Source of the DNA: Lysobacterales bacterium
Lineage (GTDB): Bacteria > Pseudomonadota > Gammaproteobacteria > Steroidobacterales > Steroidobacteraceae
Direction: 5' to 3'
Assembly (NCBI GenBank): GCA_003819815.1
Contig: RPQJ01000029.1
Span: 1 to 32,847, forward strand
Length of the DNA stretch: 32,847 nucleotides
This document shows, in pieces, positions 22,832 through 27,549 of this stretch. Each line of letters opens with the position of its first letter. Positions within the stretch are counted from its first letter, which is position 1. Position numbers and translations under genes: made by a program. A model generated the notes under the pieces. That model was not told where the DNA came from. It was given only the letters and a program-made list of their open reading frames with translations, and ran no database searches.

Positions 22832-24469
22832 ATGCGCCTCAGAGTCCTCGGCCGCCTGCTCCAGATCCAGCGCGTGCTCGTCCGGCACGGGCTCGACGAG
22901 TTCATCCTGCAGACACACCTGCTGCGGCCGCTGCGCTACGCCTTCTACCTCTCCCCCGCGACGTGGTTCGAGCGCCGCAAGGGCGGCTCGCGCGGCGAGC
23001 GCATCCGGCTCGCACTCGAGGAGCTCGGCCCGATCTTCGTGAAGTTCGGCCAGGCGCTCTCGACGCGGCGCGACCTGCTTCCCTCGGACATCGCCGACGA
23101 ACTCGCGAAGCTGCAGGACCGCGTGCCGCCGTTCCCGGGCGACCAGGCCCGGGCGATCGCCGAGCGCGCCTACGGGCGCCCGCTGGCCGAGGTGTTCGAT
23201 TCGTTCGACGAGATGCCGCTTGCCGCCGCCTCGATCGCCCAGGTGCACACGGCGCGGCTCCGCACCGGCCAGGACGTCGTCGTGAAGGTCGTGCGCCCCG
23301 GGGTGCGCGAGCGCATCGAGCGCGACCTCGAGGTGATGTACGTGGTCGCGGGCCTCGCCCTCGACTACGCGCGCGAGGCCTACCGCCTGCGGCCGGTCGA
23401 GATCGTCCGCGAGTACGAGAAGACGATCGTCGACGAGCTCGACCTGATGCGCGAGGCCGCGAACGCGGCGCAGCTGCGGCGCAACTTCGAAGGCTCCGAC
23501 CTGCTCTACGTGCCCGAGGTGCACTGGGACTACTGCCGTCCGGAAGTCATGGTGATGGAGCGCATCCACGGCATCGTCATCAGCGAGATGGACGAACTGC
23601 GGCGGCGCGGCGCGAACATCCAGCGGCTCGCCGAGAACGGCGTGCTCATCTTCTTCACCCAGGTGTTCCGGCACAACTTCTTCCACGCCGACATGCACCC
23701 GGGCAACATCTTCGTGCAGCTCGAGGACCCGGAGTACCCGAAGTACGCCGCGGTCGACTTCGGCATCGTCGGCTCGCTCGACGCCCGCGACCAGCACTAC
23801 CTCGCCGAGAACTTCCTCGCCTTCTTCGAGCGCGACTACAACCGCGTCGCGCGCCTGCACGTCGAGTCGGGCTGGCTGCCGGCCGACACGCGCGTCGACG
23901 AGCTCGAGGCCGCGGTGCGGACGGTCTGCGAGCCGATCTTCAACAAGCCGCTGTCCGAGATCTCGTTCGGCCAGGTGCTGCTGCGCGTGTTCGAAACCGC
24001 GCGTCGCTTCAACATGCACGTGCAGCCGCAGCTCATCCTGCTGCAGAAGACGCTGCTGCAGATCGAGGGGCTCGGGCGCCAGCTCTATCCCGAGCTCGAC
24101 CTGTGGAAGACGGCGCAGCCGATCCTGAAGGAATGGGCCGCGGACCGCCTGAGCGGCCGGGCGCTCGCCGACCAGCTGCGCCGCCAGCTGCCGGACCTGA
24201 GCGAGGCTCTGCGCATGCTGCCGCAGGTGCTGCAGCAGGCGGTGCAGCAGGCCTCCCAGGGCAACCTGCGCATCAAGGTCGACCAGCCGGGTTTCGAGAG
24301 GTTGCGCGCCGAAATCCGCGCGGGTGCGCGCCGGCGCGATGCGACGATCGTCGGCGCGGTCACGCTGCTCGGCGGCCTCGTGTGGCTCGCGGTCAGCTTC
24401 AACCCGTGGCCCGGCGCCGTGCTGTGCGCCGCCGGCGGCATCGCGATCGTGCTCGCGCGTCGCGACTGA
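22832..24469 (+). CDS. ubiB: UbiB, ATPase-like kinase required for ubiquinone synthesis
   Basis: The 545-residue protein is full length. It has the UbiB-specific KxGQ motif in FVKFGQALSTRRDLLP (about residues 70-85), an A-rich nucleotide loop AAASIAQVH, VVVKVVRPGV with the lysine, the catalytic HADMHPGNIF and the metal-binding VDFGIVG. Two C-terminal membrane helices follow (about 500-543). UbiB is an atypical protein-kinase-like ATPase at the inner membrane that helps extract lipophilic intermediates. It ends the ubiE-ubiJ-ubiB group, 51 bp after ubiJ. Confidence 0.96.
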   Translation: MRLRVLGRLLQIQRVLVRHGLDEFILQTHLLRPLRYAFYLSPATWFERRKGGSRGERIRLALEELGPIFVKFGQALSTRRDLLPSDIADELAKLQDRVPPFPGDQARAIAERAYGRPLAEVFDSFDEMPLAAASIAQVHTARLRTGQDVVVKVVRPGVRERIERDLEVMYVVAGLALDYAREAYRLRPVEIVREYEKTIVDELDLMREAANAAQLRRNFEGSDLLYVPEVHWDYCRPEVMVMERIHGIVISEMDELRRRGANIQRLAENGVLIFFTQVFRHNFFHADMHPGNIFVQLEDPEYPKYAAVDFGIVGSLDARDQHYLAENFLAFFERDYNRVARLHVESGWLPADTRVDELEAAVRTVCEPIFNKPLSEISFGQVLLRVFETARRFNMHVQPQLILLQKTLLQIEGLGRQLYPELDLWKTAQPILKEWAADRLSGRALADQLRRQLPDLSEALRMLPQVLQQAVQQASQGNLRIKVDQPGFERLRAEIRAGARRRDATIVGAVTLLGGLVWLAVSFNPWPGAVLCAAGGIAIVLARRD

Positions 24470-24488
24470 ACGTACGCCGCGCGACGCC

Positions 24489-25178
24489 ATGCGCTACCGT
24501 CAGCACGTCACCGAGGACGCCGTCACGCTCGAGCCGCCGTCGCCCGCCACGGCCTCGGTCGTGCTGCTGCACGGCCTCGGCGCCGACGGCTGGGACTTCG
24601 CGCCGATCGTCGACGAGCTCGAGCTGCCTCCCGCGCTCGCGCCACGCTTCGTGTTCCCGCACGCGCCGCTGCGGCCGGTCACGGTGAACGCGGGATACGT
24701 GATGCGGGCGTGGTACGACATCCGCGAGTTCACGCCGGAAGGCCGCGCCGACGCGGCGGGACTCGCCGAATCGTCGACCCGGGCGAGCGAGTATCTCGAC
24801 CGGGAGATCGAGCGCGGCGTGGCGCCGGGGCGCATCGTGCTCGCCGGCTTCTCGCAGGGCGGCGCCGTCGCCCTGACCGCGGGCCCGCGCTACCCGCACC
24901 GTCTCGCCGGCATCCTCGCGCTTTCGACGTACCTGCCGTTCCCGGAACGGCTCGCGGCGGAGCGGTCCGGCGCGAATGCCGGACTGCCCGTGCTGCTTTG
25001 CCACGGACGGCACGATCCGGTCGTTCCGCTGGCGATGGGGGTCGAAGCCCGCGACGTGCTCACGGCGAACGGCTACGAGGTCGAGTGGCACGAGTATCCG
25101 ATGCAGCACGAGGTGTGCCCGGCGGAACTCGGCCACGTCGCGGCCTGGCTCACGGCACGGTTCGCGGCCGCGGGCTGA
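24489..25178 (+). CDS. Carboxylesterase, alpha/beta hydrolase (phospholipase/carboxylesterase family)
   Basis: The 229-residue protein has VVLLHGLGADGWDFAPIV with the oxyanion-hole loop, the nucleophile Ser122 in GFSQGGA, Asp176 in CHGRHDPVVP and His207 in PMQHEVCPAE, a complete catalytic triad. It belongs to the EstB/acyl-protein-thioesterase family that hydrolyses short acyl esters; the natural substrate is unknown. It has no signal peptide. It starts 19 nt after ubiB and is the last gene of that run. The gene-free hairpin region follows. Confidence 0.9.
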   Translation: MRYRQHVTEDAVTLEPPSPATASVVLLHGLGADGWDFAPIVDELELPPALAPRFVFPHAPLRPVTVNAGYVMRAWYDIREFTPEGRADAAGLAESSTRASEYLDREIERGVAPGRIVLAGFSQGGAVALTAGPRYPHRLAGILALSTYLPFPERLAAERSGANAGLPVLLCHGRHDPVVPLAMGVEARDVLTANGYEVEWHEYPMQHEVCPAELGHVAAWLTARFAAAG

Positions 25179-25234
25179 TCGCGCTCGGCGCCTCGAGACG
25201 GCTGCGCACAGTGCCGTGCGCGTGTCGCTCGCCG

Positions 25235-25350
25235 CGAAGACCGGAATCCGGAAGCTCTTCCCGGGACGCCGTGAACCCCTCCTTGGGGGCTCCGGGCGCC
25301 GCGTCCCTGCGGCGCACGGCCCGGGAAGAGCTTCCGGATTCCGGTCTTCG
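25235..25350 (+). repeat. Large hairpin element 1 (31-bp outer stem, two inner hairpins)
   Basis: Outer arms 25235-25265 and 25320-25350 are perfectly complementary over 31 bp. A 54-nt core lies between them. After an ACG bulge, CCGTG (25269-25273) can pair with CACGG (25315-25319). Inside are hairpin A (CCC/GGG stem with loop CTCCTT near 25279-25284) and hairpin B (GCGCCGC 25296-25302, loop GTCCCT, GCGGCGC 25309-25315). The fold is a three-way junction. The core is shared, in opposite orientation, with element 2. It lies between convergent genes, so it may also end transcription from both sides. No protein-coding role is supported. Confidence 0.85.
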
Positions 25351-25454
25351 TGGCTCGGTGGCTGTCGCGGTTGGCGCTGCGCAGGTCTCGCGCTGGCGCG
25401 ATAGCGTCCGGGAATGCGTACGCCCACGCGCAGCACGACCGACGCACCGAGTCC

Positions 25455-25564
25455 GCCCGCTGTCCGGAGCATCCTTGCCGGGCCGTGCGCCGCAGGGACG
25501 CGGCGCCCGGAGCCTACATGGACGTACTCGCGGCGTCCCGGCAAGGATGCTCCGGACAGCGGGC
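25455..25564 (-). repeat. Large hairpin element 2 (28-bp outer stem, same core inverted)
   Basis: Outer arms 25455-25482 and 25537-25564 are perfectly complementary over 28 bp but differ in sequence from those of element 1. The 54-nt core (25483-25536), read on the minus strand, equals the element 1 core in its last 32 nt and first 6 nt. Hairpin B is identical (GCGCCGC/GCGGCGC, loop GTCCCT). Hairpin A is TAC/GTA with loop GTCCAT instead of CCC/GGG with CTCCTT. Stems changed while pairing and loops were kept. Confidence 0.85.
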
Positions 25565-25652
25565 AGACGAGAGAGCGCGTGAGCCGCCGCGCAGCGTGAC
25601 GCGTCTGCGCCCGCGTCTGCACAGCGCGCACCAGAGCACACCGCCAACGACG

Positions 25653-26339
25653 CTACCGCAACTCGATCCAGGTCGCCCGCGCCCTGGCGCAGAGTTCCCC
25701 GTCCTCGTCGAAGATCGCCGTGCCCGCCCGGTGCTTGCGGCCGTCGACGTCGATGCGCCAGCCGATGACGATGCATGACTCGCCGACGTGCACGCGCCGG
25801 TCGACGTGCGCGTGCATCTCGCCCAGCAGCATCGGGCGGCGTCCCGCCGTGACGGCGAAGTAGCCCGGGCAGTCGAGCGCCGCCCAGTGGAACTCGGGCG
25901 CGACCTTGCCGTCGCCGCCGTCGAGCGCGTCGGCCGGCAGCCACGGCGCTGCGACGATGCCGCTCTCGAGCCGGCCCGCGAAGATCCGCAGCCCGTCGCC
26001 GCGGCGCCGGTGCGGGCCGCAGACGAAGCACTCCGGGAAATTGTGCTCGCGGAATCCCGCGTAGTGCTGCGAGGCCCAGACGGCCTGCACGTACTGCGGC
26101 GGCGGCGGCACCTCGAGCTCGAGGCGCGCGGGCGTCGCGCGGGCGACGGGACCGGCCTCGGAGCGGAGTTCCCAGCCACCGTCGGCCTGTTCGAGCGACA
26201 GGATCGTGCCCAGCGGCGGAGGCGTCACGAGCCGAACCTGCACGTCGGCGCGCAGCGTGGCCGCGATGAGCCCGCAGACGTAGCCGCCGTTGCCCGAATC
26301 CGGCGGGCCGCGGTAGCGGCGGTCGATCGTGAGATTCAC
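25653..26339 (-). CDS. Thioesterase-like hotdog protein
   Basis: The 228-residue protein resembles thioesterase-like proteins with two hotdog halves: an N-terminal half with DSGNGGYVCGLIAATL and a C-terminal half with GDGKVAPEFHWAALDCPGYFAV and MHAHVDRRVHVGE. Between them is FPECFVCGPHRR (about residues 101-111), a cysteine motif frequent in this hypothetical family. Hotdog proteins usually hydrolyse or bind acyl-CoA; the substrate is unknown. I chose GTG at 26339 because it forms a GTGA overlap with the upstream DUF2007 gene. The frame is open further upstream, but that part is antisense or out of frame to that gene. Confidence 0.75.
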   Translation of the reverse strand: MNLTIDRRYRGPPDSGNGGYVCGLIAATLRADVQVRLVTPPPLGTILSLEQADGGWELRSEAGPVARATPARLELEVPPPPQYVQAVWASQHYAGFREHNFPECFVCGPHRRRGDGLRIFAGRLESGIVAAPWLPADALDGGDGKVAPEFHWAALDCPGYFAVTAGRRPMLLGEMHAHVDRRVHVGESCIVIGWRIDVDGRKHRAGTAIFDEDGELCARARATWIELR

Positions 26340-26662
26340 CGAGCGCCCTCGCTCCCCGGGGGCGGCGCCGCGCAGTTCCAGCACTGCGAGAACTGCGGCT
26401 CGACCTCTTCCCCGCAGCGCGGGCACGTCCAGGGCTCGCCGTCCTCCACGGATTGCAGGGCCTCGTCGATGAGCGCGCGAGCCCGCAACGACTCGCCCGG
26501 CTGGCGCACCCACAGCTCCGGCCAGCACTCGACGAACGGGATCTCGCCCACGACGCCGCCGAGGCGGTCGTTGCGGACCACGCAGGCGATGCCCTCGGAC
26601 TCGAGCACGTTCCTCAAGTGGGCGATCTCGACCAGGGATTCGGCGGTATGGACCTTGCGCAT
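26336..26662 (-). CDS. DUF2007 domain protein with C-terminal zinc ribbon
   Basis: The 108-residue protein has an N-terminal DUF2007 domain (KVHTAESLVEIAHLRNVLESEGI, then PELWVRQPGESLRARALIDEAL), the putative prokaryotic signal-transducing fold with a ferredoxin-like core. A four-cysteine ribbon follows, CPRCGEEVEPQFSQCWNC, probably binding zinc. No function is established. The ATG at 26662 has GGAGG 8 nt upstream. It is cotranslated with the thioesterase-like gene through a 4-nt overlap, and is divergent from the SDR gene with only 29 bp between starts. Confidence 0.85.
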   Translation of the reverse strand: MRKVHTAESLVEIAHLRNVLESEGIACVVRNDRLGGVVGEIPFVECWPELWVRQPGESLRARALIDEALQSVEDGEPWTCPRCGEEVEPQFSQCWNCAAPPPGSEGAR

Positions 26663-26679
26663 CGGCGGGCCTCCGCGCG

Positions 26680-26685
26680 TAGCAT
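26680..26685 (+). promoter_or_regulatory. -10-like hexamer 6 nt before the SDR gene (leaderless type)
   Basis: TAGCAT, then 6 nt, then the ATG at 26692. A TTGCGC 19 nt further upstream could be a weak -35, inside the start of the divergent DUF2007 gene. No ribosome binding site is present. Confidence 0.5.
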
Positions 26686-26691
26686 GACGCA

Positions 26692-27549
26692 ATGAGCAGG
26701 ACCCGTGCCCTAACGATACTGTCCGGACGCTTTCCCGCAAAGCGCGCCTTCGTCACCGGTGCGGCGAGCGGGCTCGGCCGGGCCACCTGCGGGCTGCTCG
26801 CGACCGACGGGTGGCGGCTCGGCCTGCTCGACCGCTCGGCGGAGAAGCTAACCCGGGTGTCGGCCGCGCTCGAGGCCGCCGGGGCGGCGGTACACGCCTA
26901 TGCGGGCGACGTCTCCGACGAGGCGTTCGTCGCGCACGCGGTCGAGGACTACGGGAATCGCGTCGGCGGGCTCGACCTCATGGTCAACAACGCGGGGGTG
27001 GCCGTGGCGGGAGCCGCGGAGGTGACGCCGCCCTCCGACTGGCGCTGGATCGTCGACGTCAACCTGCTCGGGGTCGCCTGGGGCACGCGCGCGGCGATCC
27101 CGCAGATGCGGGCAGCGGGCCGCGGACTGATCCTGAACGTGGCGAGCGCGGCGGGGTTCGCGTCCGGCCCGCGCATGGCGGCGTACAACGCGACCAAGGC
27201 GGGCGTGATCGCGCTCACCGAGACGGTGGCGGCGGAACTCGAGACGACGGGCGTGCAGGCGACGGTCGCGATGCCCGGGTTCTTCCGCACGTCGCTGCTC
27301 GACACGATGCGGGCGCCGCCGGCCGACGGCGAGCTCGCGCAGCGCCTGATGCAGCGCGCCTCGCACGATGCCGACGATGCAGCGGCTGCGCTCCTGCTGG
27401 CCGCGGCCCGCGGGGCAAGCCACGTCGTGTGGCCCCGCGAGTACCGGCTGCTATGGTGGCTGAAGCGGGGGTTCCCGGGCTGGTTCGTCAGGCGAGCCGG
27501 GCGGATGGGCGGGCGGCTCGCGGCGCAGGCGGATCGACCGCGAGGATGA
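26692..27549 (+). CDS. Short-chain dehydrogenase/reductase
   Basis: The 285-residue classical SDR has TGAASGLGRA (cofactor, about residues 22-31), NNAGVAVAG (about 98-106), the catalytic Ser in NVASAAGFAS and the YxxxK pair in AAYNATKAG (about 164-172). The C-terminal extension RGFPGWFVRRAGRMGG is basic and may be membrane-associated. Substrate unknown; the coenzyme preference is not determined. The last 62 nt overlap, on the opposite strand, the 3' end of the M15 peptidase gene. Confidence 0.9.
   Translation: MSRTRALTILSGRFPAKRAFVTGAASGLGRATCGLLATDGWRLGLLDRSAEKLTRVSAALEAAGAAVHAYAGDVSDEAFVAHAVEDYGNRVGGLDLMVNNAGVAVAGAAEVTPPSDWRWIVDVNLLGVAWGTRAAIPQMRAAGRGLILNVASAAGFASGPRMAAYNATKAGVIALTETVAAELETTGVQATVAMPGFFRTSLLDTMRAPPADGELAQRLMQRASHDADDAAAALLLAAARGASHVVWPREYRLLWWLKRGFPGWFVRRAGRMGGRLAAQADRPRG

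Follow-up and report, generated by a model that had tools for sequence, protein, structure and literature searches.

The window, a stretch of 32,847 nucleotides, harbored two facing copies of a dispersed repeat, each consisting of a long stalk and a three-way junction with two hexaloop hairpins, and selection on folding acts on the strand whose loops read A-N-G-G-A-N. We assign a probability of about 0.55 to the reading that this repeat spreads non-autonomously and that RNA of this strand carries CsrA sites in pairs on a stable stalk. An earlier sequence-only reading had described the hairpins on the opposite strand (hereafter the drawn strand) and missed the ANGGAN loops on its complement (the GGA strand), as well as the kinship with YPAL/RU-2, Ysr224, and TwoAYGGAY.

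Both three-way-junction elements of that description were found, with the 54-nt cores (25266-25319 and 25483-25536) and the four hexaloops as given there. Element 1 (25231..25354) has the minus strand as its selected strand, assigned by the family-wide bias shown below. Its outer arms (25231..25265 and 25320..25354; defined by the fold, without a strand) enclose hairpin A with a 5-nt bulge (25268..25290, minus strand, by sequence reading and a pattern match at 25268-25290) and hairpin B (25292..25319, minus strand, by sequence reading), and the loops read AAGGAG (loop A, 25279-25284) and AGGGAC (loop B, 25303-25308) on the minus strand. After a strandless spacer (25355..25450), element 2 (25451..25568) follows with the plus strand as the selected one by the same bias. 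Its arms (25451..25482 and 25537..25568, again by fold and without a strand) enclose hairpin B (25483..25510, plus strand, by sequence reading and fold) with loop AGGGAC (25494-25499) and hairpin A with its bulge (25512..25534, plus strand, by sequence reading and pattern match); loop A of the latter, ATGGAC (25518-25523, plus strand), lies within TACATGGACGTA and is read on the GGA strand as UACAUGGACGUA. The RNA fold of element 1 (25231-25354, plus strand) had -108.5 kcal/mol (z -12.7) and 35 outer pairs, one of them G.U, and that of element 2 (25448-25571, minus strand) had -101.0 kcal/mol (z -10.8) and 32 outer pairs; either stability was reached by 0/200 shuffles. The two elements are complementary at 86% over 72 nt. 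They lie between convergent genes, encoding a member of the phospholipase/carboxylesterase family (Abhydrolase_2; 24324..25178, plus strand) on the left and, on the right, a 377-aa frame of uncertain start (25653..26786, minus strand) with no Pfam match.

The source assembly (G000, a MAG of 2.76 Mb in 213 contigs, 87% complete) yielded 30 places with E below 1e-7 in a DNA search (31 rows, one of which was the query read backwards). A covariance model (R1) matched at 33 places in this genome, and eight congeners had 6-20 matches each (E<=1e-3), indicating that the elements are not due to chance; the repeat was thus present in 9/9 genomes of the genus. These further copies, in the own genome and in congeners, back the proposal of a dispersed, paired intergenic repeat. 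The model is low in sequence information (effective number 0.61) and may therefore match other long hairpins, and the core was confirmed by reading in a subset of loci. Within the family, the same model located the repeat in 41/120 genomes, belonging to 15/25 genera (including that of the source genome).

Among the copies, the 54-nt three-way-junction core is conserved, and the arms of about 28-35 bp differ between loci and are mostly kept paired (two arms are unpaired at loci L003 and L007 of G000). Three core types were recognized in G000; types 2 and 3 make up four facing pairs, each composed of two elements of the same type, and one of these clusters holds a third element, of type 1. When matches within 1500 bp were joined, 136 of the 140 covariance-model matches (four weak ones with E >= 2.4e-5 were omitted) formed 107 clusters in the nine genus genomes: 27 with two elements, one with three (+--), and 79 single. 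All of the two-element clusters (27/27) face each other (+ then - on the drawn strand). We retrieved 100 of the 107 clusters (129 elements), and 128 elements could be parsed. Within a genome, entire pair units are alike (L192/L195, 80.7% over 347 bp; L196/L206, 78.6% over 336), and the spacer and flanks of the genus copies shared no motif above shuffles. At the right end of contig C104 of G000, the second element of L186 has unpaired arms, and the element with its outer flank shows 85.6% similarity to part of L203 across 216 bp, which looks like a contig whose assembly join lies in the repeat core, or else like genuine recombination. At the foot of hairpin B, L213 (congener G001) and the minus-strand element of L212, a different locus, contain similar inserts of roughly 16-19 nt (ACCCTRAAGGGCAYAA). 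Additionally, three copies of congener G003 (two in L238 and one in L245) have the hairpin A stem swapped from GCC/GGC to GGC/GCC at loci where the usual form is retained by other species, hinting at concerted evolution of the cores.

The selected strand was identified from imperfect arm pairs. After a single transition, a Watson-Crick pair is equally likely to have become G.T or A.C. Of the 128 parsed genus elements, 98 had >=80% Watson-Crick arm pairs, and their 2744 pairs comprised 94 A.C, 15 G.T, and 71 other imperfect pairs on the drawn strand (A.C vs G.T, p 4e-15; sign by element 47 to 6); the other 30 elements lay under this threshold by an ungapped count, in which indels are penalised as well. 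Among 87 elements taken from named contigs, 97 A.C, 8 G.T, and 86 other imperfect pairs were found (p 1e-20; sign by element 51 to 3), or 92 to 8 without three elements of congeners (L071, L104, L124). The named-contig set was compiled manually: wrong-strand duplicates, cut-off matches, and the genus loci L084 and L087 were omitted, and four loci from the family survey were added; two listed ones were unparsable. These p-values are optimistic because the elements are related. As a control, arms paired at offsets of -3 to +4 gave 1666 A.C and 1563 G.T in sum, with single offsets leaning up to 1.9-fold in either direction. The A.C:G.T bias was seen in all genus gene contexts (convergent 45:3; tandem 14:4 with the GGA strand antisense and 9:3 with it sense; divergent 17:1) and in both paired (42:7) and single (52:8) elements. 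Since an A.C pair on the drawn strand becomes a G.U wobble on its complement, the complement is the molecule under folding selection, and the strand could be obtained from sequence alone. The sequence-only reading, which had listed a protein-binding RNA among the possible roles, therefore read the wrong strand; such an RNA is supported by the present data as one option.

Pairing is kept while the arm sequence changes. Eighteen copies from G000 align without gaps over 104 columns; in their outer 27-pair helix 98.4% of the cells pair, double changes occur in 23/27 pairs, and G.U on the drawn strand accounts for 3/486 cells. Over the whole structure, 190 double-change cells were counted versus 55.3 +/- 5.5 in shuffles (reached by 0/500). 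Hairpin B, formerly described as unchanged, takes part in this, as pair 60/71 covaries among the 18 copies (CG 12, GC 6). Hairpin A as first drawn had two badly fitting pairs (unpaired in 5/18 and 12/18), and by sequence reading it appears to be better drawn as GCC-[GYRAR bulge]-NNN-[hexaloop]-NNN-GGC. In orthologous loci of the genus, identified via flanking proteins of about 60-97% identity, the alignable arms contained 108 columns changed on both sides, 70 changed on one side, 377 unchanged, and 11 unpaired in both; some sequences enter more than one of these comparisons, which had been chosen beforehand to have >=17 pairs and 62% identity. Twelve "paired indels" came from one misregistered comparison (L198-/L251-) and were excluded as evidence. 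The clean cases had paired vs one-sided changes of 3 to 0 (L211/L282), 8 to 0 (L214/L275), and 8 to 0 (L199/L237), and other orthologous loci lost pairing, e.g., L207/L268/L279 by sequence reading. The paired changes comprised 46 transitions and 34 transversions (of 80; flanks 226:225 of 451), so that the G.U route alone is insufficient. Covariation that exceeds shuffles and recurs within orthologous loci therefore bears out the earlier view that selection acts on the fold and not on the stem sequence.

On the complement, both loops read A-N-G-G-A-N and are usually closed by C-G. Hairpin-B hexaloops parsed in the genus (n=84) had the motif bases A in 82, G in 83, G in 82, and A in 83, and hairpin-A hexaloops (n=124), some of which were parsed out of register, had A in 106, G in 115, G in 116, and A in 110. 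C-G closed 99/113 parsed B loops and 120/127 parsed A loops; loop A is not independent in the named-contig set, as these loci were found by a pattern containing loop A. Beneath loop A lie three pairs, often UAC/GUA, followed by the conserved 5-nt bulge. The CsrA SELEX consensus is given as RUACARGGAUGU, with six-nt loops, AC and GU pairing beneath, and mostly <=4 pairs, and ANGGAN loops are reported in RsmE structures (PMC7652899; PMC3791407). The loops of the repeat thus have the form of a CsrA/RsmA site, an ANGGAN hexaloop closed by a C-G pair, and the hairpin B stem of 7-8 bp is longer than most SELEX hairpins of CsrA. The motif was intact in 82/98 elements with good arms and 25/30 with poor arms, indicating that arms and loops decay separately. 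A CsrA gene was found in 21/23 element-bearing genomes, the two misses being MAGs (one of them congener G001), and in 3/9 genus genomes, with 0 in G000 itself.

Gene contexts were obtained from codon-usage gene calls, without annotation. Of 110 genus elements with both neighbours (19 more without both were excluded), 61 were convergent, 21 tandem with the GGA strand antisense, 17 tandem with it sense, and 11 divergent; the corresponding numbers in the named-contig set, which includes some genus loci, were 29, 24, 18, and 13 (n=84; 43 more lay at edges, far from frames, or inside them). The orientation of the elements to neighbouring genes is therefore neutral. No sigma-70-like promoter signal above shuffles was found in the flanks, and frames between neighbouring elements in seven named contigs were ordinary genes by reading, with no transposase recognised.

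The repeat extends beyond the genus. A 28-letter core pattern matched at least 119 stretches in a contig collection (genome_contigs), and the matches listed, nearly all gammaproteobacterial by record title, included Xanthomonas, Marinobacter, Oceanimonas, Zobellella, Alteromonas, Thiopseudomonas, Sedimenticola, Salinivibrio, Erwinia, and others. The repeat, otherwise gammaproteobacterial, also forms a facing pair on a contig titled Bacillus subtilis SK7B5 (L128), a record that may be mislabelled. A shorter hairpin-A pattern occurred in 1-144 copies in 23/23 genomes chosen for carrying it (reversed control 0-1). In a sample of the class Gammaproteobacteria, the pattern was found in 40/369 genomes, with a maximum of 474 copies, and its exact form was absent from most; in a phylum sample, it was found in 30/398 genomes, comprising 17 of the class (15 with more than one copy) and 13 from other classes; each of these 13 had a single match, which looks like chance. 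In the 474-copy genome (G390, L323-L352), 21 elements were parsed, with A.C to G.T at 30 to 11 on the drawn strand; many share arms and form subfamilies, so that the repeat seems recently spread there, making this genome a good model for such spread. An apparent replichore bias in G390 was dropped, as it reflected output order, in which forward matches were printed first. Elements alternate in arrays in Xanthomonas contigs, and some pairs outside the genus stand back to back (L067, L075). Plasmids gave zero matches for two short queries, E. coli genomes zero for one query, and viral contigs 0, 0, and 1 across three scans.

Known relatives were found among repeats and RNAs described separately. 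The parts available to us of two papers (PMC2229807, PMC2759123) describe the Yersinia YPAL/RU-2 repeat (De Gregorio et al. 2006) as a dispersed intergenic palindrome with a suggested influence on upstream transcript stability, and do not mention CsrA-like loops. The complement of the 168-nt RU-2 sequence printed there (PMC2759123, Table 1b) holds, by eye, the core of our elements, GACGCCGTAAATACATCCATGTAGGC..GCGCCATCCTTGGCGC. RU-2 is described as a conserved 168-nt unit, whereas arms are locus-specific in G000 and copies often form facing pairs; the core sequence is thus common to both, and the conserved unit including arms was not found here. TwoAYGGAY RNA (Rfam RF01731; Weinberg et al. 2010, PMC2864571), recorded from human gut, gammaproteobacteria, and Clostridiales, similarly has two A-Y-GGA-Y loop hairpins on a poorly conserved outer stem, on the same GGA strand; a CsrA role was proposed earlier, as untested (PMC4333381), and what we saw of both papers did not mention a high-copy repeat. 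The second loop base of our repeat is often G, and thus ANGGAN fits it better than AYGGAY.

RF01731 had no match to the window elements up to E 5. In 3/9 genus genomes it scored 36.6-41.9 bits on the GGA strand (0 reached the gathering value of 43), and its alignment in congeners placed both loops onto both loops. It exceeded the cut-off in 4/23 other genomes; among the loci of these, the exact core lay inside the match in L295 and not in L294, L296, or the Erwinia loci. Overall, the exact hairpin-A core was inside the match at 10/33 RF01731 loci, always on the opposite strand (L291, L292 and its duplicate L299, L295, L297, L300, L303, L308, L310, L315); 23/33 were without it, five of them belonging to a different Erwinia repeat, and the match at L290 overlaps a covariance-model match. 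Several miRNA models likewise give scores to long hairpins, and the stalk may therefore contribute to the RF01731 score. The different repeat of Erwinia sp. ErVv1 (the genome of L075), seen at L293, L304, and L311 (~1470-1600), has a pair of hairpins with AGGGAT hexaloops and lacks a core match, and 28/37 RF01731 matches of that genome pass the cut-off; it is a separate dispersed twin-GGA repeat. The Ysr224 consensus (Rfam RF02770) carries the same core, aligned core to core, with scores of 17.8-27.5 against a gathering value of 70, and is modelled on the strand opposite to the selected one. Facing palindromic pairs and the alternating Xanthomonas arrays recall REP/BIME and REPIN, but our repeat is a three-way junction of about 120 nt without a Y1/RAYT link. 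CsrB/RsmZ sponge RNAs likewise have repeated GGA hairpin loops (PMC7652899); they are single sRNA genes, whereas the sites of the repeat are scattered over the chromosome. The element was undescribed in the papers searched, and none of the matches listed joins YPAL with TwoAYGGAY or CsrA.

The selected molecule could instead be DNA, namely a single-stranded hairpin of the GGA strand serving a recombinase or transposase of a miniature mobile element, analogous to REP/BIME or IS200/IS605 ends, with coincidental CsrA-like loops. The high copy number, the likeness of whole pair units, the shared arms in the 474-copy genome, and the neutral orientation to genes all agree with this, and YPAL has been reported as recently mobile (PMC2229807). 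Against it, elements that occupy one locus across related species keep their pairing through paired changes, which places selection in situ and not at transposition alone. In addition, the association with a REP-type (Y1) transposase raised by the sequence-only reading was not supported: Y1_Tnp is absent from a genome with 32 matches, the repeat is unmatched in another with 6 Y1_Tnp, and Y1/RAYT presence did not track element copy number over 120 genomes; two short queries gave no plasmid match, and a single viral contig matched in three scans. G.T is also tolerated in DNA hairpins, a point in favor of DNA, and we regard this explanation as rather unlikely, though deserving serious weight.

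Template switching inside the palindrome, i.e., quasipalindrome correction, might homogenise the arms without selection on folding. It would account for the mixed spectrum of transitions and transversions, for arms and flanks diverging alike at L211/L282 (arms identical at 23/26, flanks 87-90%), and for the first 16, proximal pairs being almost perfect (24 non-Watson-Crick of 1568). Symmetric copying, however, gives equal numbers of A.C and G.T, in conflict with the strand bias in both sets, and poorly paired arms exist. The bias thus speaks against template switching as the sole cause, which we consider improbable, and the process may contribute. A role as a bidirectional terminator of transcription, or as a block to exonucleases, for convergent genes has equally poor odds. 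Convergent sites are the largest context class in both sets, but no T-run adjoins either hairpin when the window sequence is read directly, so that an intrinsic terminator is not supported, and a terminator needs neither conserved loops nor a bulge nor a single-strand bias.

According to the paired-CsrA-site reading, the complement strand would be transcribed via read-through or antisense transcription, and the RNA would display two ANGGAN hexaloop hairpins side by side in a three-way junction that caps a stable stalk of about 30 bp. The hairpin pair would serve as a landing site for a CsrA/RsmA dimer, and the stalk as a scaffold of free sequence in which pairing is kept, so that it would drift by paired changes. 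The RNA could then tie CsrA to the 3' region of a host mRNA, affecting stability or Rho access, or titrate CsrA when summed over tens to hundreds of copies. The match of RF01731, with its earlier CsrA proposal, to elements on the GGA strand counts in favor, as does the CsrA gene in 21/23 element-bearing genomes. An mRNA 3' element should prefer sense, and the tandem counts in both sets speak against this reading, as do the persistence of the strand bias where the GGA strand is antisense, the lack of a promoter-like signal in the flanks, loops and arms not decaying together, the CsrA gene not found in the 87% complete source genome, the long hairpin B stem, and the transversions. The neutral orientation, the missing promoter, loops kept regardless of arms, and the gaps in CsrA keep single-stranded DNA in consideration and leave CsrA at about even odds; the structure, the family, and the strand we regard as demonstrated.

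More broadly, and tentatively, with the odds somewhat against it, Gammaproteobacteria may carry genome-wide paired CsrA sites in a mobile-like repeat kept for its RNA fold, of which YPAL, TwoAYGGAY, and Ysr224 would be fragments. A Yersinia mobile repeat, an orphan Rfam RNA, and a Yersinia sRNA, which go by separate names, would then belong to one family with a testable function. If this is true, dispersed 3'-end or antisense RNAs, numbering tens to hundreds, would act alongside CsrB-type sRNAs in titrating or positioning CsrA. These results point to a hidden pool of CsrA sites; should CsrA bind them, the number of CsrA sites per cell and the models of Csr titration would change for many marine and plant-associated gammaproteobacteria.
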